A stretch of DNA of 64,000 nucleotides from Flavobacteriales bacterium. GTDB taxonomy: Bacteria > Bacteroidota > Bacteroidia > Flavobacteriales_D > UBA2798. This document shows, piece after piece, positions 4,285-20,031 of the stretch (within the stretch, counting starts at the first letter, position 1; every line of letters begins with the position of its first letter). The translations under genes were made by a program, and so were the position numbers. Where the stretch lies: positions 1 to 64,000 of the forward strand of contig JAIBBF010000010.1 in the NCBI GenBank assembly GCA_019694795.1, in the 5' to 3' direction. Under the pieces are notes generated by a model that was not told the origin of the DNA, made no database searches, and was given only the letters and a program-made list of their open reading frames with translations.

Positions 4285-5103
4285 ATGAAGAAAACATTAC
4301 TCTTTATTACAGCGTTGGGAGGATTTAGCCTCTTTTTAGCCTCATACGATAACGGAGCAGCGACGCACAGCAAAGACCGAACAGGGTCTCCGGTATCGAA
4401 TTTAAACTGCGGACAATGTCACGGTGGTGGCGGATTTAGTCCTTCCATTTCTGCACAATTATTAGATGCCACAAATACACCTGTTACTTCCTATAACCCG
4501 GGAGCAACTTACACCTGGAAAATTACGATCACGGCAGGTGCGGGAAATCCGAATTTTGGTTTTCAAACTGTGGCATTATTATCCAACAATTCCAATGCAG
4601 GAACTTTATCTGCACAGAGTGCAAATACCAAAGTGGTTACTTTAGGCGGAAGAAAATATGGAGAGCATCCATCGCCTAGTACAACCGGAGTGTTCATGTT
4701 AAACTGGGTAGCTCCAGCTTCAGGTTCGGGAACCGTAAAATTTTATACCACCGGAAATTGCGGAAACAACAATAACAACGATACCGGCGATTCTCCTTCT
4801 AATTTAGGCGCAACTATTATTACCGAAAATACATTTGCGGGAATTGAAGATGTAGCGCAGGTAGCTTTTACCGTATTTCCGAATCCAGCATCCGAGAGCA
4901 TCCGTATTCAATCTGAATTGAGCGGAAATTATATGCTTGAATTAATCGACGTAAGTGGTAAAATTGTTTACACAGAAAATATCGTTTTAAAGGGTGTCAC
5001 CTCCGGTGATGTAAATGTTGCATCATTTGATAAAGGAATTTATCTGGTTCGTCTTACCTCTGCCAATCAGGAAATTCATCTGAATAAAGTGCTTATCAAG
5101 TAA
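4285..5103 (+). CDS. Secreted CxxCH-containing T9SS cargo (choice-of-anchor V-like)
   Basis: The 272-residue protein has a signal peptide, then a c-type heme motif CGQCH at residues 42-46 within a GSPVSN..CGQCHGGGG context typical of Bacteroidetes 'choice-of-anchor V' proteins. A beta-sandwich middle follows, and a type A T9SS sorting domain occupies roughly the last 75 residues (FPNPASESIRI ... GIYLVRLTS ... KVLIK). It is therefore predicted to cross the outer membrane and stay at the surface. I use the ATG at 4285 rather than an upstream TTG because the n-region MKK begins there. It heads a five-gene same-strand run with a second CxxCH protein, an OB-fold protein, YceI and a DUF5777 barrel. 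Heme attachment is inferred from the motif only. Confidence 0.8.
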   Translation: MKKTLLFITALGGFSLFLASYDNGAATHSKDRTGSPVSNLNCGQCHGGGGFSPSISAQLLDATNTPVTSYNPGATYTWKITITAGAGNPNFGFQTVALLSNNSNAGTLSAQSANTKVVTLGGRKYGEHPSPSTTGVFMLNWVAPASGSGTVKFYTTGNCGNNNNNDTGDSPSNLGATIITENTFAGIEDVAQVAFTVFPNPASESIRIQSELSGNYMLELIDVSGKIVYTENIVLKGVTSGDVNVASFDKGIYLVRLTSANQEIHLNKVLIK

Positions 5104-5115
5104 TCTCTTTTCATT

Positions 5116-5478
5116 GTGATTAAGTTTGTTTTTTTCGGCATGGCTGTAGTTATTCTTACTATGGCCTGCTCGAAAGAAAATGAGCAGACGCTCATTCAGG
5201 AAACCTTGTGCCAGTTGGATACCTTAAGTTTTTCAAAGCAAATCCGGCCCATTATCACCCAGCGCTGCCTACCCTGCCACGATAATCTCCGGGCTGAGGG
5301 CGGTTATATTCTCGATAATTATTCCGATATTTCAGCTGAAGCTCTAAATGGCGTATTACTAGGAGTAATCAGGCATGAAAACGGATATAGTCCCATGCCA
5401 AAGGATGCCCCTTCAATGCCTGCTTGCGAAATCAGTGCCATTGAAAAGTGGATCGCCCAGGGAGCTCCTAATAATTAA
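5116..5478 (+). CDS. Monoheme c-type cytochrome lipoprotein
   Basis: The 120-residue protein has a lipoprotein signal (hydrophobic stretch ending MACSKEN, lipid cysteine near residue 18) and one CxxCH heme site, CLPCH, near residues 51-55, in the context IRPIITQRCLPCH. That context is common in cytochrome-like domains of Bacteroidetes and Planctomycetes. The tail has MPKDAP and EKWIAQGAPNN, matching the C-terminal helix and methionine-containing loop of small cytochromes. I take the GTG at 5116 because it supplies the positively charged n-region. The ATG at 5140 would leave a poor signal peptide. It sits 12 bases after the T9SS CxxCH gene and 3 bases before the OB-fold gene. It may pass electrons or sense redox state at the envelope, but its partner is unknown. 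Confidence 0.8.
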   Translation: MIKFVFFGMAVVILTMACSKENEQTLIQETLCQLDTLSFSKQIRPIITQRCLPCHDNLRAEGGYILDNYSDISAEALNGVLLGVIRHENGYSPMPKDAPSMPACEISAIEKWIAQGAPNN

Positions 5479-5481
5479 ACG

Positions 5482-5895
5482 ATGAAAAAAATTATTTTAC
5501 TTCTGGTCCTTGCCGGAGTTGCCATCGGAGCATGGTACGCCTATTCGGAATGGAACCGTAAACCCGCCACCGCTGCAGATGCGGCCACCGATTTTAAAGT
5601 GACTGCTGTTGACCTGATGAATGAGTTCAACGCAGACGAAACGGCCGCTACCAAAAAATACCTCGAGAAAATGCTGGAGGTAAAAGGAATAGTTGCAGAG
5701 GTTAGTCCGAATGATAAAAACTACGACGTGCTGCTCGAAACGGATGATTTGATGGGAGGTGTTAATTGTCACCTGGTGCCCGAGCAATCAGAAAAGGCAA
5801 AATCACTTCACCCCGGTGATGAAATTACAGTGAAAGGCAAGTGCAATGGTAAACTGACCGACATCGAATTAAACGTCGGCATTATTCTTGATTAA
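5482..5895 (+). CDS. OB-fold (tRNA_anti-like) membrane-anchored protein
   Basis: The 137-residue protein has an N-terminal membrane segment (about 3-21, IILLLVLAGVAIGAWYAY) and then a single OB-fold of the type Pfam calls tRNA_anti-like. The landmarks are VKGIVAEV, a conserved NCHL segment, and GDEITVKGKCNGKL. Despite the family name these exported Bacteroidetes proteins are not known to bind tRNA. The lone cysteines in NCHL and GKCNG could form a disulfide or bind a ligand. It is inside the CxxCH/YceI operon and its role is unknown. Confidence 0.75.
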   Translation: MKKIILLLVLAGVAIGAWYAYSEWNRKPATAADAATDFKVTAVDLMNEFNADETAATKKYLEKMLEVKGIVAEVSPNDKNYDVLLETDDLMGGVNCHLVPEQSEKAKSLHPGDEITVKGKCNGKLTDIELNVGIILD

Positions 5896-5914
5896 CCCAA
5901 CCTAAAAACCAGTC

Positions 5915-6466
5915 ATGAAAAAATTAATCTTCCTCTTGTTGCTCGCGCCGGTAATGGCCAATGCACAAACCAAAGTGTTTACCAAAAAGGGACAAATCTC
6001 TTTTTATTCCGAAACTTCCGTTGAAAAAATTGAAGCGCATAACAATCGCGTAACTGCTGTTCTGGAACAAGAAAGCGGCAAGCTTGAATTTTCCGTACTT
6101 ATCACCGCTTTTGAATTTGAAAAAGCACTGATGCAGGAACACTTCAATGAAAATTATATGGAGTCGCCCAAATTCCCGAAAGCAACATTTAAAGGAGCCA
6201 TCACCAACATTAAAGATATCGACTTTAAAAAAGATGGAGAATACGTTGCAAAAGTGGAAGGAGAAATGACCATTCACGGAGTGACAAAAAAAGTTGCCGA
6301 AAGCGGAAAAATTGTAATTAAAGGCGGAAAAATTTCTGCAAGTTCAACCGTAAACATTGCACTTAAAGATTATAACATCACCGTACCATCTGTGGTTGGA
6401 GCAAAGATTGCAGAAGTGATTAAAGTGGTGGTTAACATACCTTCTTTTGAACCATTGAAAAAATGA
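5915..6466 (+). CDS. YceI family periplasmic lipocalin-like protein
   Basis: The 183-residue protein has a signal peptide (cleavage after NAQ, residue 18) and the YceI beta-barrel: KGQISFYSETSVEKIEA at the start, FNENYMESPKFPKATFKG in the middle, and VEGEMTIHGVTKKV, the family signature, at about 115-130. YceI proteins hold long isoprenoid chains, such as polyprenyl quinones, in a lipocalin-like barrel. In this operon it lies between two CxxCH proteins and a predicted outer-membrane barrel, so a quinone or isoprenoid carrier for an envelope redox step is a reasonable inference. The last four bases overlap the start of the DUF5777 gene (ATGA), which suggests translational coupling. Confidence 0.88.
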   Translation: MKKLIFLLLLAPVMANAQTKVFTKKGQISFYSETSVEKIEAHNNRVTAVLEQESGKLEFSVLITAFEFEKALMQEHFNENYMESPKFPKATFKGAITNIKDIDFKKDGEYVAKVEGEMTIHGVTKKVAESGKIVIKGGKISASSTVNIALKDYNITVPSVVGAKIAEVIKVVVNIPSFEPLKK

Positions 6467-7362
6467 AATTAAAACAAAGCATTCTCCTGTTTACATTCGG
6501 ACTATTCAGTCTGAATACCTTTTCGCAGGATTTATTAAGTGAATTAGGCGATGAAGAAGAAGTGGTAAGAACACGCGCCAGTTTTAAAAATTCGAAGGTG
6601 ATTAATGCGCAATCGCTGGAAACCACTTACGGTGGTGTACTCGATTTCAGAATATCACACCGATTCGGACAAATTAACGGCGGACTGTATCAATTCTTCG
6701 GTTTGGATCAGGCCAGCATGCGTTTAAGTCTGGATTACGGACTTACCGACCGCCTGCAAATCGGAATAGGCAGAAGCACCTATGAAAAAACGGTAGATGG
6801 CCATATTAAATACCGGCTATTGTGGCAAACCGCCAATAGCAACAAAATGCCGATTTCATTAATTCTCTATTCGAGCATGTCGGTAAACGGAATGCGTTTC
6901 GATAACACATTTTACGAGCGCACCTTCGATACACGGATCAATTATGTGAATCACATTATTGTCGGAAGAAAATTCAACGAAAGGTTTTCTGCGGAATTAT
7001 TACCAACCATCGTACACAGAAATTTTGTTTTAACCGCTGCAGAAAAAAATACCGTCTTCGCTATTGGAGGAGCAGGAAGAGCAAAACTCACCAACCGGCT
7101 TGCCTTAAATGCAGAATATTTTTATGTTCCCGAAGGACAACTCGCCGCGGGATATACCAACTCCCTTTCATTGGGATTTGATATTGAAACCGGGGGACAC
7201 GTATTCCAATTACACATGACCAACACACCGATTATGGTAGACAAAGGTTACATCACTGAAACCACCGGTAAATGGGGCAAAGGAGATATCTGTTTTGGTT
7301 TTAATATCTCGCGTGTGTTCACGATTAAAAAACCAAAAATGCCGAAAGAAGAACAACAATAA
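6463..7362 (+). CDS. DUF5777 family outer-membrane beta-barrel protein
   Basis: The 299-residue protein has a signal peptide (cleavage near FSQ, residue 22) and alternating amphipathic strands typical of Bacteroidetes barrels. Segments such as GGVLDFRISHRFGQINGG, DRLQIGIGRS and GHVFQLHMTNT match what I know of DUF5777, a family often found beside YceI and cytochrome genes. It ends the operon that begins at 4285 and overlaps yceI by four bases. Function is unknown. Surface exposure next to a CxxCH protein suggests it could be a pore or scaffold for the redox proteins of the operon. Confidence 0.8.
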   Translation: MKLKQSILLFTFGLFSLNTFSQDLLSELGDEEEVVRTRASFKNSKVINAQSLETTYGGVLDFRISHRFGQINGGLYQFFGLDQASMRLSLDYGLTDRLQIGIGRSTYEKTVDGHIKYRLLWQTANSNKMPISLILYSSMSVNGMRFDNTFYERTFDTRINYVNHIIVGRKFNERFSAELLPTIVHRNFVLTAAEKNTVFAIGGAGRAKLTNRLALNAEYFYVPEGQLAAGYTNSLSLGFDIETGGHVFQLHMTNTPIMVDKGYITETTGKWGKGDICFGFNISRVFTIKKPKMPKEEQQ

Positions 7363-14666: not shown

Positions 14667-15763
14667 TTTACCAAATCCATAATTACACCGGCAATCGCAT
14701 CTGCCGAATTCACAAATCCCATTCCTCCGATATTACGATGCAATCCAAAACATTTTTCTTCATCTTTCAGCAATTCAACTGCTGTGATTCCTAATTTCTC
14801 CTTTGCTTCAACATCTTTTACCAATAAAGCGGCATGGTGGTTGACCAAAGCCATGGCATTTTTTGTCTGATGATCTTCTGCCACATTGGGAGAAGGTACC
14901 AGAATGACCGGTTTACGAACTAAACACAATTCGGAAATTGCAATTGCTCCCGCTCTGGAAATAACCACATCAGCCATAGCATAACCCAAATCCATTCGTG
15001 TGATAAAATCAAAAACTTTAATATGGTCGCATTTCAATTCTTCCACCGCTTTTTTTGCACGATCGAAATAGGTTTTTCCGGTTTGCCATACTACCTGAAT
15101 CTCCTCTTTTTTTAATTTCGGCAAATACAACTCAATGGCTTCATTGATGGTTCGCGCACCTAAACTACCGCCAACAATTAACAGCGTTTTCTTATCTGCA
15201 TTTAAACCGAAAAATTCAGCGGCACGCGGACGTTTACCTTCCAGCATTACGACTTCTTCGCGTACGGGATTTCCGGTGAGAATAATTTTCTCCTTCGGAA
15301 ACCATTTATCCAAACCATCATAGGCAACACAAATTTTATTGACGGATCCTGCCAATAATTTATTTGTTTTACCCGGAAACGAATTCTGCTCCTGAATTAC
15401 GGTAGGTATTCTTTTTTGTGTGGCAATTTTTAACATGGGTCCACTAGCATACCCTCCTACTCCAACAACTACATCCGGATTAAATTCACGAATTACGTTT
15501 CGTCCTTTAATCATGCTTCCAAAAAGATTCCAGAAAAATGAAAACCATTTAAAGGTAATTTTCCGTGGCATCCCCTGAATTTTTAATCCCACAATTTTAT
15601 ATCCGGCGGCCGGAACCTTTTCCATTTCCATGCGGCCTTCTGCTCCAACAAATAAAATATCGAGATCAGGATTCTTTTTCTTTAATGCATTTGCAATAGC
15701 TACAGCAGGGAAAATATGTCCACCCGTTCCTCCTCCACTAATTAAAACTTTACGCAACGACAT
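14663..15763 (-). CDS. murG: UDP-GlcNAc--lipid I GlcNAc transferase MurG
   Basis: MurG adds GlcNAc to lipid I to make lipid II on the inner face of the membrane. The protein of 366 residues has the GGGTGGHIFPAVAIA motif at the N-terminus, GGSLGARTINEAI in the UDP-binding C-domain, and SRAGAIAISEL with PSPNVAEDHQTKNA, all typical of the family. I take the ATG at 15763 because MSLRKVLISGGGTGGH is the usual N-terminus. An in-frame upstream start at 15805 would overlap ftsW by 56 bases. With this start the overlap with ftsW is 14 bases. Confidence 0.96.
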   Translation of the reverse strand: MSLRKVLISGGGTGGHIFPAVAIANALKKKNPDLDILFVGAEGRMEMEKVPAAGYKIVGLKIQGMPRKITFKWFSFFWNLFGSMIKGRNVIREFNPDVVVGVGGYASGPMLKIATQKRIPTVIQEQNSFPGKTNKLLAGSVNKICVAYDGLDKWFPKEKIILTGNPVREEVVMLEGKRPRAAEFFGLNADKKTLLIVGGSLGARTINEAIELYLPKLKKEEIQVVWQTGKTYFDRAKKAVEELKCDHIKVFDFITRMDLGYAMADVVISRAGAIAISELCLVRKPVILVPSPNVAEDHQTKNAMALVNHHAALLVKDVEAKEKLGITAVELLKDEEKCFGLHRNIGGMGFVNSADAIAGVIMDLVK

Positions 15764-16946
15764 AATTTCCTCCTTCCTCTTTTGCACTTGTATTCCGCTT
15801 TGCACGATTATGCTCTTCTTCTGATTCCTGCTCTACACTACGGCTAACGCTTAAGATCATGCCGAGCGATACACAGGTAAACCATGTTGATGTTCCTCCC
15901 ATTGAAATCAATGGCATATTCTGACCAGTAACAGGCATTATTTTCGTACATACTGCCATATTTACAAAGGCCATAAATACCAGATTAAGGCATAACCCCA
16001 GAACCAGTAATGAACCAAAATTGCTATCGCATTTAGAGGCAATGCGAATGGATCTGTACAATAAAATCAAATACATCATCAGCAATGCCACACCGCCCAA
16101 CATGCCGAATTCTTCAATGAAAGAAGCAAACACAAAGTCGGCATATGCTTCGGGGATAATGTGCTTCATTTGACCATTACCGGGTCCTTGTCCAAGCATT
16201 CCTCCATTGGCAACGGCCTGAAGTGCATTATTAATTTGCCATTGTTTTTTCGGGTCTTCGGAGGAGTGACTGGTAAAACGATTCATCCATGTTTCCAAAC
16301 GCGGTAGTAATTCAGGATTAGCTTTGGCCAGCAACAGCATCAATGCCATTGCAGCAACAGCACTTCCCACAATGGTTAAAATATGCCGCATTGGAACTTT
16401 TGCTAAAAAAAACATGATGAGTACAATTCCAAAAATTAAAACGGCTGTAGAAAGATTTTGCGTAATAATTAAACCGATAACCAAACCAACAGGAATCAGA
16501 ATGGGAACAATTCCCTCTCTGAAATCTTCAAATTTATCCTTGTTAATGGTGAGCATCCGCGCAACAAAAACAATCAGTACCACCTTCGCAAAGTCGGAAG
16601 TTTGAAACTTAATATTTAAAACAGGAATTTCCAGCCAGCGCTCTGCTGAGTTAATTTTTACTCCTGCCACCAATGTGACAAACAATAAAATCACACTCAC
16701 CCAAACCAAAATCTGCGATAGCTTGGAAAAATATTTAAAGTTGATATTGTGAACATAAAACATCATGACGAAACCGGTCACCACCATCATTACATGTTTA
16801 ATCAAAAAGGATTCCGTTCCTGTATCACTCGAACGAACAAGAATTGGTGTGAAGGAATAAACCGACACCAGCGATAGCAATGAAAGCAACAATGCAATCA
16901 TCCAGATCACTTTATCTCCCTTTAGATATGTAAATACAGCTCTCAA
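15750..16946 (-). CDS. ftsW: Septal peptidoglycan glycosyltransferase FtsW
   Basis: This 398-residue SEDS family protein has about ten membrane helices. SEDS proteins polymerise lipid II together with a class B PBP, here the FtsI at 21494. Landmarks are SAERWLEIPVLNIKFQTSDFAKVVLIVF, QNLSTAVLIFGIVL, GMLGQGPGNGQMKHIIPEAYADFVFASFIEEFG and TGQNMPLISMGGTS near the C-terminus. It starts 5 bases after the orphan MurD-like gene. The C-terminal tail is cytosolic and charged. Confidence 0.96.
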   Translation of the reverse strand: MRAVFTYLKGDKVIWMIALLLSLLSLVSVYSFTPILVRSSDTGTESFLIKHVMMVVTGFVMMFYVHNINFKYFSKLSQILVWVSVILLFVTLVAGVKINSAERWLEIPVLNIKFQTSDFAKVVLIVFVARMLTINKDKFEDFREGIVPILIPVGLVIGLIITQNLSTAVLIFGIVLIMFFLAKVPMRHILTIVGSAVAAMALMLLLAKANPELLPRLETWMNRFTSHSSEDPKKQWQINNALQAVANGGMLGQGPGNGQMKHIIPEAYADFVFASFIEEFGMLGGVALLMMYLILLYRSIRIASKCDSNFGSLLVLGLCLNLVFMAFVNMAVCTKIMPVTGQNMPLISMGGTSTWFTCVSLGMILSVSRSVEQESEEEHNRAKRNTSAKEEGGNYVVA

Positions 16947-16951
16947 GCGTT

Positions 16952-17440
16952 TTAATTATTCCAATTCGATTTAAAAGAATCACCACGGTGACGATAATCT
17001 TCAAACATTCCGAAACTGGCGCATCCGGGAGAGAACAACACAACATCTCCGGATTTCGACCATGATTTTGCTTTTGATACAGCTTCTGTCAGATTTGAAA
17101 CGTAATCGTAATTATCCACCACCTCAGACAATGAACGACGTATTTCTAAATCCTGCTCAACTCCGAAAACCACCAATGAAACAACTTTGTATTTCACAAG
17201 TGATGCGAGAATCGAATAATCCTCCGGAAAATCGGTAGTCTGTAAAATCAACACCACCGGTTTTTCGATTTGCATTAATGATTCATTCACCGAACGCAAA
17301 TCAGTTGCCTTAGAATCATTGATAGCTTCCACTCCATTGAAGCTTTCAATGTATTCCATGCGGTGTTCAATCAACGAAGGTCTTTCCCTCAATTGATCAA
17401 CAGAAACCGATAGCAATTCTTTATTTAGTTTGCTTTTCAT
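16952..17440 (-). CDS. Free-standing MurD C-terminal-domain paralogue
   Basis: This 162-residue protein aligns over nearly its whole length with the last third of the adjacent MurD. Shared landmarks are EHRME / EHRLE, INDSKAT, KPVVLILQTTDFPEDYSILASLVKYKV against the MurD equivalent, and the terminal SPGCASFGMFEDYRHRGDSFK against [21 protein letters not shown]. It lacks the UDP-binding N-domain and the ATP P-loop domain, so it cannot be a complete ligase. Residues that in MurD contact the D-Glu substrate (the Lys of NDSKAT, the Ser and Phe of SPxCASFxxF) are kept, which argues against random decay. It sits 9 bases after murD and 5 before ftsW, in frame with its own ATG. It may be a pseudo-ligase that binds substrate or scaffolds Mur enzymes; a decaying duplicate is the alternative. 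Confidence 0.85.
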   Translation of the reverse strand: MKSKLNKELLSVSVDQLRERPSLIEHRMEYIESFNGVEAINDSKATDLRSVNESLMQIEKPVVLILQTTDFPEDYSILASLVKYKVVSLVVFGVEQDLEIRRSLSEVVDNYDYVSNLTEAVSKAKSWSKSGDVVLFSPGCASFGMFEDYRHRGDSFKSNWNN

Positions 17441-17449
17441 ATCTGCAAA

Positions 17450-18793
17450 TTATAAAGCACGAACGGCGGATTTAAATTGGTGTCCGCGGTCTTCATAGTT
17501 TTCGAAAAGATCAAATGAAGCGCAACATGGCGACAACAATACCACCTGGTCTTTTTTCGCTAAACGATACCCAAGTGCAACTGCTTCCTCTGCCGTTTTT
17601 GCTTCAGCAATTTGCTCAACCATTCCGGAGAAGTGATTGATGATTTTGGAATTGTCGGTACCTAAACATACAATAGCTTGTACTTTTTGGCGAACCAATT
17701 CATCCAGCATCGCATAATCATTGCCTTTGTCAACGCCACCAACAATCCATACAATTGGTTTATTTACCGATTCCAAAGCATACCAGGTAGAATTTACATT
17801 GGTAGCTTTTGAGTCGTTAATAAACTCAATGCCATGAACGCGGGCAACGAATTCTAAACGGTGTTCAACATTCTGGAAATCCGACAAACATTCGCGGATG
17901 GTTTCCTTTCTGATTTCAAGCAGCTTTGCGGCAATACCGGAAGCCATTGAATTGTAAGCGTTGTGCTTACCCTGGAGTGCAAGGTCAAAAATTGACATAG
18001 ATAGTGTGGTGTTGTTGGTGGTTATATTGATTGTGTTTGTTTCGTAATCGGCATAAGCTCCTTCTTCTATTTTATGCTTAATAGAAATCGGATACTTATG
18101 AGCAGTAATCATTCGGTCTGCCATTTCTTTCATTGTAATTTCATCGTCGGCACAATAAATAAATGCGTCCTCCGATTGCTGATTTTGCAGAATTCTGAAT
18201 TTGGAATTCACATAATTCTGCAAATTATAATCGTAACGATCTAAATGATCCGGTGTGATATTGGTAAGAACCGCAATGTTGGCACGGAAGTCATACATAT
18301 TATCCAACTGGAATGACGACAACTCCAATACATAGTGGTCGTGATCTTTTTCCGCCACCTGCATTGCAAAGCTTTGTCCCACATTACCTGCCAATCCCAC
18401 ATTTAACCCTGCACGCTTTAAAATGTGATATGTCAGTAATGTAGTTGTCGTTTTTCCATTGCTGCCGGTAATACAAATCATTTTTGCATTGGTATAGCGT
18501 GATGCAAATTCTATTTCAGATAAAACCGGAATATTCTTTTCTTTTAATTTTTTTACGATGGGTGCTTTATCGGGAATTCCCGGACTCTTCACCACTTCAG
18601 TAGCATTTAAAATCAGTTCTTCACTGTGTTTTCCCTCTTCAAATGGCACAGAACGTTCCTGCATCATGGATTTATATTTTTCCTTGATGCTTCCCATATC
18701 GGAAACGAACACTTCAAATCCCTGCTTCATAGCAAGAATTGCTGTGCCTGTTCCGCTTTCTCCGGCGCCTAATATGACGAGTCTTTTTTTCAA
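17450..18793 (-). CDS. murD: UDP-MurNAc-L-Ala--D-Glu ligase MurD
   Basis: MurD adds D-Glu to UDP-MurNAc-L-Ala. The 447-residue protein has the N-domain motif [15 protein letters not shown], the P-loop [51 protein letters not shown] and [18 protein letters not shown] place the start at a TTG (18793) whose last two bases and following A form the mraY stop, giving a TTGA overlap and the expected N-terminus [11 protein letters not shown]. The next upstream ATG (18847) would add 18 unlikely residues inside mraY. A partial copy of its C-terminal domain follows downstream. Confidence 0.95.
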
Positions 18794-20031
18794 CGAAGTT
18801 TCAGCGTTACAATTGAAATCACTGCCAGCATTATTCCTACAATCCAAAATCTGGCAACAATTTTAGATTCGTGCATTCCTTTTTTCTGGTAATGGTGGTG
18901 CAATGGCGACATCAGAAAAATTCTTCTTCCTTCTCCATATTTCTTTTTCGTGTATTTGAAGTAGGACACCTGCATCATCACCGATAAATTTTCGATAAGG
19001 AACACGCCACAGAAAATTGGAATAAGCAATTCTTTACGAATAGCAATGGAGAATACCGCAATGATTCCTCCCAATGCCAGCGAGCCGGTATCACCCATAA
19101 ATACCTGCGCAGGATAAGCGTTGTACCACAAAAATCCGATACAGGCTCCAACGAATGCAGCAATGAACACAACCAATTCTCCCGAGTCGGGGATGTACAT
19201 CAGGTTGAGATAATCAGCAAAAGCAAGGTTACCGGATAAGTACGCGAAAATGGCCAATACCGTTCCAATAATAGCAGAAGTACCAGTTGCTAATCCATCT
19301 AATCCGTCAGTAATATTTGCTCCATTCGAAACTGCAGTTACAATGACAATAACAATGACCACAAAAATCACCATGGTGAGGATGGACTCTTTCCCGGCGA
19401 TCCATGAATAATTGAATTCATTGTTTTTTACAAATGGGATAGTGGTTTTAAGTGAACGCGTCTCCTGCCATACGTAATTTCCGTCATCGCATGGAATAAT
19501 ATCGCCTTCACCGGCCACTACTTCATAGGTCTTGTCGGGATCAATCGCAACTTTTTCTTTAATCCGGACATCCTGATGAAAATACAGCGTAATACCTACA
19601 ATGAGTCCGATTCCGATCTGACCCATCACTTTAAATTTTCCTGCTAATCCTTTTTTATCCTTTTTAAATACCTTGATATAATCATCAATAAATCCAATTG
19701 TACCTAACCAGATGGTAGAGACAATCATCAAAATCACATAAATATTTTGAAGCTTAGAAAACAACAATGTTGGAATTAAAATGGCCATTAGAATAATGAT
19801 ACCACCCATTGTTGGTGTTCCCTTTTTCTCCATTTGTCCCTGTAATCCCAAATCACGAATGCTCTCTCCAACTTGTTTATAGCGGAGATATTCAATCAAT
19901 CGTTTTCCAAAGAGCATGGAAATGATCAGTGATGTAATAATAGCCATCGCTGCACGGAAGGAGATGTAATGAAACACCCCTGCTCCTGGAACATCAATTG
20001 AATCGAGATATTGAAATAAATAGTATAACAT
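18790..20031 (-). CDS. mraY: Phospho-MurNAc-pentapeptide transferase MraY
   Basis: MraY transfers phospho-MurNAc-pentapeptide to undecaprenyl phosphate, making lipid I. The 413-residue polytopic protein shows [13 protein letters not shown], the DD motif [41 protein letters not shown] and [11 protein letters not shown]. It is about 50 residues longer than E. coli MraY because of a periplasmic insertion at roughly 145-210 ([18 protein letters not shown] region), which is usual in Bacteroidetes. Its start overlaps the murE stop by one base, and its stop overlaps the murD TTG start. Confidence 0.97.

Follow-up and report, generated by a model that had tools for sequence, protein, structure and literature searches.

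In MurD, the D-Glu end of the product is held by Lys348 together with Thr321 and Ser415. Arg302 acts as a hinge handle contacting the nucleotide, and rotation of the C-terminal domain (C domain) controls the enzyme (PMC4816537). Enzymes of the same pathway have also been placed in larger assemblies: MurG is a scaffold for MurE-MurF (PMC6420597), and the Mur synthetases of Mycobacterium tuberculosis gave two-hybrid-type signals with FtsW (PMC3605390). A possible physical coupling of the cytosolic Mur ligases to MraY, MurG and FtsW is a long-standing question, for which the gene described here is a natural candidate link. This small extra gene sits inside dcw, a cluster that ranks among the best conserved in bacteria, and at best a piece of MurD can be recognised in it.

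Results

The window, a stretch of 64,000 nucleotides of contig JAIBBF010000010.1 from a Flavobacteriales bacterium (GCA_019694795.1), carries a dcw cluster whose genes, named from their translations, are ordered mraZ, mraW, ftsL-like, ftsI, murE, mraY, murD, the free-standing gene (free gene), ftsW, murG, murC, ftsQ, ftsA and ftsZ; apart from the free gene the cluster is ordinary for Bacteroidota. The initial annotation had reported a 162-residue ORF with its own start and tight spacing, and we found the ORF exactly as described: it begins with its own ATG 9 nt downstream of the murD stop (17450) and ends 5 nt upstream of the ftsW TTG (16946) (Table 1). The actual start of murD probably lies somewhat inside the ORF listed. 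A split murD was ruled out by the full-length, intact neighbouring MurD, and an assembly frameshift by the identical architecture in dozens of genomes. A chance frame is very unlikely for the window ORF, since the same gene recurs in the same slot across the order.

Table 1. Features of the murD-ftsW interval in the window
Feature	Coordinates	Strand	Remarks
Free-standing MurD C-terminal-domain gene (pseudo-ligase)	16952..17440	-	ATG start, 162 aa ORF; Pfam, MurD alignment, AlphaFold2, Foldseek, same-slot orthologues
murD, full-length	17450..18847	-	every catalytic residue examined is intact
ftsW	15750..16946	-	TTG start, 5 nt past the stop of the free gene
N-terminal 20 residues, low-confidence helix	17381..17440	-	free-copy alignments; helix 6-18 in the model
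EHR (E. coli MurD 300-302 region)	17360..17368	-	kept in window copy; gone in f4 copy A and f5
NDSKAT (E. coli MurD 316-321)	17303..17320	-	kept in window copy
QTTDF replacing GGxDK (E. coli MurD 344-348)	17228..17242	-	Lys348 lost
SPGCASFGMF (E. coli MurD 410-419)	17003..17032	-	S-P invariant in free copies

As the initial annotation had said, the ORF aligns to the C domain of the neighbouring MurD; the pair is 37% identical along 161 aa (E 2e-30), and the window protein matched Pfam Mur_ligase_C (PF02875) with 35.4 bits (E 2.2e-8), above the gathering score of 28.4. Also as described, the 162 residues encode the C domain alone, the UDP domain and the ATP-binding P-loop domain being absent, and EHRxE, NDSKAT and SPxCASFxxF are all kept in this copy. 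The NCBIfam MurD model (TIGR01087), an equivalog for which three domains of ~440-465 aa are expected, was matched with 126.7 bits, below its cut-off of 211.95 and over model positions 304-438 of 441 only. The catalytic residue set of the ligase is incomplete as well: Lys348 is changed to Phe within QTTDF, a replacement that the initial annotation did not mention, and His301, Arg302 and Lys319 are present in the window copy, not family-wide. Both f4 copies tested fell below the Mur_ligase_C gathering score (18.1 and 20.6 bits), and the copy of Fluviicola taffensis did not match PF02875. The AlphaFold2 model of the window protein comprises the whole C domain (pLDDT 86.5, pTM 0.81), with low confidence in the first 12 residues, and its best 33 matches in a Foldseek search of the PDB were all MurD (TMq 0.68-0.78); the predicted fold is that of Mur_ligase_C. 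The N-terminal helix of the free copies reads LLxARxxxL and is equivalent to the linker helix that precedes the C domain in MurD (LLEIRKETI in the MurD of the window); the window copy keeps this motif only approximately.

Exploring 60 relatives, ~200 genomes of the order and ~90 dcw regions that were read, we found a second small C-domain gene adjoining murD in seven families (f1, f2, f3, f4, f5, f8 and f11), in a slot that lay between murD and ftsW in every carrier region read. The gene was present in 3/3 genomes of f1, in 24/25 of f3, the exception having a truncated MurD match only, and in 7/7 of f4, each with two copies; two copies were also found in f8 and in f5, the second one of f5 being strongly diverged. 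The congener of the window also has the gene with an open frame, as do genomes from across the order. In f9, which we infer to be Crocinitomicaceae, including the cultured carrier F. taffensis RW262T (PMC3236050), the same slot holds a hyper-diverged gene of 150-165 aa in at least 8 genera. Representatives of this gene were unrecognised by Pfam and NCBIfam, and hhalign joined it to the main family with a probability of 97.7. It keeps the N-terminal LLxARxxxL and a PVxW strand; its EHR/NDSKAT/SPxCAS-type motifs are gone and the gene survives.

The dcw regions read from f6, f7, f10, f13 and several f9 genera had no free gene. Since several families live without it, the gene is an accessory one, dispensable on long time scales. 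In a phylum-wide sample outside the order nearly every genome gave a single match, its own MurD; three of five exceptions were read, and these three had nothing between murD and ftsW. A scan of genome contigs returned mostly ordinary MurD and added a few named carriers, and viral contigs contained no relatives. Searches of the open-access literature for MurD domains that are free-standing or paralogous, and for dcw genes of Crocinitomicaceae or Flavobacteriales, turned up no description of this gene, most subscription journals lying outside their scope, and the family is apparently undescribed. Two loci of f9 genus g22 (L155 and L056) lack a free copy and, within the stretches read, murD is not followed by ftsW, so the dcw cluster seems broken there. 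In a fragmented MAG of f4 (G050; L199:2138-2442:+), copy A falls into two reading frames that overlap, by assembly error or as a true pseudogene.

To trace the origin of the free copies we used protein and species trees. In the protein tree 38 free copies of the order formed one group apart from MurD (SH-aLRT 87), and constraining 44 free copies to one clade raised the likelihood above that of the unconstrained tree (p-AU 0.82). A single origin is therefore favoured, not proven, the one-clade tree having the better likelihood and not being rejected; for the same reason recurrent independent duplication was set aside as the main history. The species tree, built from MurE, MraY, FtsW, MurG and MurC, is consistent with a gene that was already there at the base of the order and descended vertically, with several losses and one later tandem duplication, from which f2, f4 and f8 have their copies A and B and f5 probably its two copies. 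Because it begins with the linker-helix segment of MurD, the free gene looks like a copy of the murD 3' end. In the two-copy families, copy B has near its N-terminus a conserved basic motif, SYTIHKSKKSxVD, which is absent from MurD and from copy A (L034, L036, L040, L046, L049, L053, L059, L062, L064 and L066) and could possibly be an interaction motif.

Selection was examined by Nei-Gojobori estimates in eight close pairs from four genera (dS 0.4-0.63). Omega of the free gene was 0.05-0.20 in these pairs, that of MurD 0.05-0.14 and that of FtsW 0.02-0.09. Between the window and its congener the free gene is 51% identical (dN 0.46), with an omega of 0.32 that is rough, dS being 1.44 and near saturation; omega of MurD in this pair is 0.066. 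On the same taxa the tree of the free gene is 2.6 times as long as that of the MurD C domain (14.31 vs 5.59). These values show purifying selection under a constraint that is looser or of another kind, not decay. Selection rather than decay had been proposed from the motifs, and the unsaturated pairs agree; dN/dS gave purifying selection in place of neutral evolution. Given the fast evolution of the free gene, a conserved interface is not obvious. Branch rates of the free gene covaried with those of FtsW at rho 0.03 and with those of the MurD C domain at rho 0.22 (p 0.16). In lineages without the free gene the relative rate of FtsW was the highest among dcw proteins, but the difference was not significant (p 0.11). 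Neither rate comparison strengthens the case for an adaptor at FtsW.

Comparison of 62 MurD C domains with 46 free copies (numbering of E. coli MurD) separated what is kept from what is lost. All 62 MurD domains have H301, R302, N316, D317, S318, K319, A320, T321, G344, G345, K348, S410, P411, C413, S415 and R425. The free copies keep Lys348 in 1/46 and have a degraded GGxDK loop; H301 and R302 are each found in 31/46 and K319 in 26/46. The claim that the active site retains its D-Glu/product end is not supported, given the loss of the Lys348 loop in 45/46 copies and, in other families, of His301, Arg302 and Lys319 too. S410-P411 is kept in 46/46 copies, D317 in 44/46, R425 in 43/46 and N316 nearly everywhere, residues that may equally well be structural; what is retained looks like a loop scaffold, and the ligand grip looks like the part that was lost. 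The free copies share the derived residues N322D, A329S, A390L and L409F relative to MurD, the residue before S-P being Phe in 40/46 including the window copy, vs Leu409 in MurD. The window copy has D47, S54, L117 and F136 at these four sites (D322, S329, L390 and F409) and fits the family signature, with Lys348 lost and S410-P411 and R425 retained. Four named Bacteroidetes MAGs (L074, L107, L127 and L147) have free copies between murD and ftsW with the GG of GGxDK and a replaced Lys348, possibly a less degraded grade or an early branch of the family.

The junctions around the free gene differ. At 24/48 loci the ftsW start lies at or within the stop of the free gene (median distance 1.5 nt), whereas start and stop overlap or touch at 1/35 direct murD-ftsW junctions and 1/47 murD-free gene junctions. 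For 24/48 vs 1/35, with starts picked by rule, Fisher's test gives 1.5e-6, a p that overstates independence as the loci are related. A few of the 35 murD-ftsW junctions hold an unlabelled diverged copy; these are among the long ones, and the overlap count is unaffected. Where genes are inserted within the order (genus g35 of f3), there are two, and they lie on the murD side of the free gene, which stays next to ftsW. The placement in dcw suggests a link with MurD and FtsW; the overlaps and the position kept at insertions point to ftsW. The inserted stretch at L071:4893-6512:+ and the matching one of L195 encode two tandem, related lipoprotein-like membrane proteins (SSCASxxxVVxxGFLQKRKYKKGY). 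Outside the order, L135 (Flavobacteriales bacterium nzgw150, 5070-6993 +) has ~190 nt between free copy and ftsW; this copy still has GGVDK and clusters among the C domains of MurD, and the C domain of its own MurD sits on a long branch, so that recent duplication or gene conversion is possible. An AlphaFold2 prediction of the in-frame murD-TAA-free gene read-through, made from an alignment of few rows, was uninformative on docking (pTM 0.47), as not even the domains of MurD itself were confidently placed.

Discussion

We explain the free gene best as a non-catalytic MurD-C-domain paralogue of one old origin and vertical descent that acts as a protein-protein adaptor between FtsW and the Mur proteins, with a probability of about 0.45 for this reading as a whole. 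Its identity as a MurD-derived pseudo-domain is well supported; its function is what we infer from gene context and residues. Near the base of the order, most likely once, a tandem duplication would have copied the last part of murD, from the linker helix through the C domain; the copy would then have been inherited vertically, with a second duplication in one branch and several losses. On the way the D-Glu-gripping loop with Lys348 was lost while, by prediction, the fold was kept. The protein would be made together with FtsW through the overlapping or abutting stop and start, and would serve as a cytosolic module that tethers or tunes the Mur side (MurD or a Mur/MurG/MraY assembly) at FtsW, being neither an enzyme nor a precursor-binding protein. 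Co-production with FtsW and the adaptor role are suggested by the stop/start overlap and by the gene staying with ftsW at insertions; loss of the substrate-gripping loop, retained selection and the abutting or overlapping ftsW together argue that the product is probably a partner protein and not an enzyme.

The main rival, which we regard as unlikely though worth serious consideration, is direct regulation of MurD, in which the free C domain competes or docks with the swinging C domain or the central domain of MurD and tunes its activity. Such a role would suit a gene derived from MurD and encoded beside murD that keeps the NDSKAT and S-P side of the domain, given that MurD is controlled by C-domain rotation with Arg302 as hinge (PMC4816537), and the weak rate covariation with the MurD C domain points the same way. 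However, this covariation is not significant, many carriers have lost His301/Arg302/Lys319, residues of the nucleotide-facing side, the gene stays with ftsW and not with murD at insertions, and the read-through fusion did not dock, in a prediction that was itself uninformative.

A decoy that soaks up an antagonist of the MurD C domain (a phage lysis protein, a toxin or an antibiotic-like peptide) would explain the fast evolution, the tandem copies and the repeated loss. We consider it improbable, since all unsaturated pairs have an omega far under 1, the gene stays within dcw at every locus read and, to our knowledge, no antagonist is aimed at this domain. Binding of the muropeptide precursor UDP-MurNAc-Ala-Glu or of the product through the D-Glu end, as sensor or carrier, had been raised by the initial annotation and can appeal to EHR, NDSKAT and SPxCAS in the window copy. 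The loss of Lys348 and the GGxDK loop in 45/46 copies and of Lys319 in 20/46, elsewhere also of His301 and Arg302, makes it very improbable as the conserved function; moreover, the UDP and ATP domains are missing, and in f9 the motifs are gone while the gene persists. A neutral leftover of a murD duplication that is now disappearing, as the absence of the gene from f6, f7, f10, f13 and some f9 genera and the broken copy A of G050 might suggest, is hardly credible in view of the low omega in eight close pairs from four genera, the frames intact in practically all carriers, the persistence across the order and the new shared residues.

The adaptor reading can be extended, tentatively and with more doubt than confidence, to an order-wide, previously undescribed component of the Bacteroidota divisome: a catalytically dead MurD C domain, translationally coupled to FtsW, that would couple precursor synthesis by MurD or a Mur assembly to FtsW and whose origin would be invisible to family libraries in Crocinitomicaceae such as Fluviicola. 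F. taffensis, a cultured and sequenced carrier, puts the gene within experimental reach.

Among known systems, MurD shares with the free gene the fold, 37% identity in the neighbouring pair of the window, NDSKAT and the S-P...R-G framework, but has in addition the UDP and ATP domains and the GGxDK loop with Lys348, the free gene being separate with its own start. Weak fold matches of the window protein include entries of the plastid-encoded RNA polymerase (8r6s, 8qma and 8ras), probably through its MurE-like subunit, which would be a case where a descendant of the Mur ligases has become part of an assembly, although it is eukaryotic, has further domains and is unrelated to cell division. MurT, another weak fold match, is a Mur-ligase descendant acting as half of the heteromeric MurT/GatD complex (PMC6085368); it retains the ATP domain and is catalytic, and the window gene has no GatD-like partner beside it. 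An isolated Mur C domain can be crystallised, as the Mpl-type ligase domain 3mvn in the PDB shows; that domain, by its title, was excised from a ligase, whereas the lone domain of the window gene is naturally free-standing.
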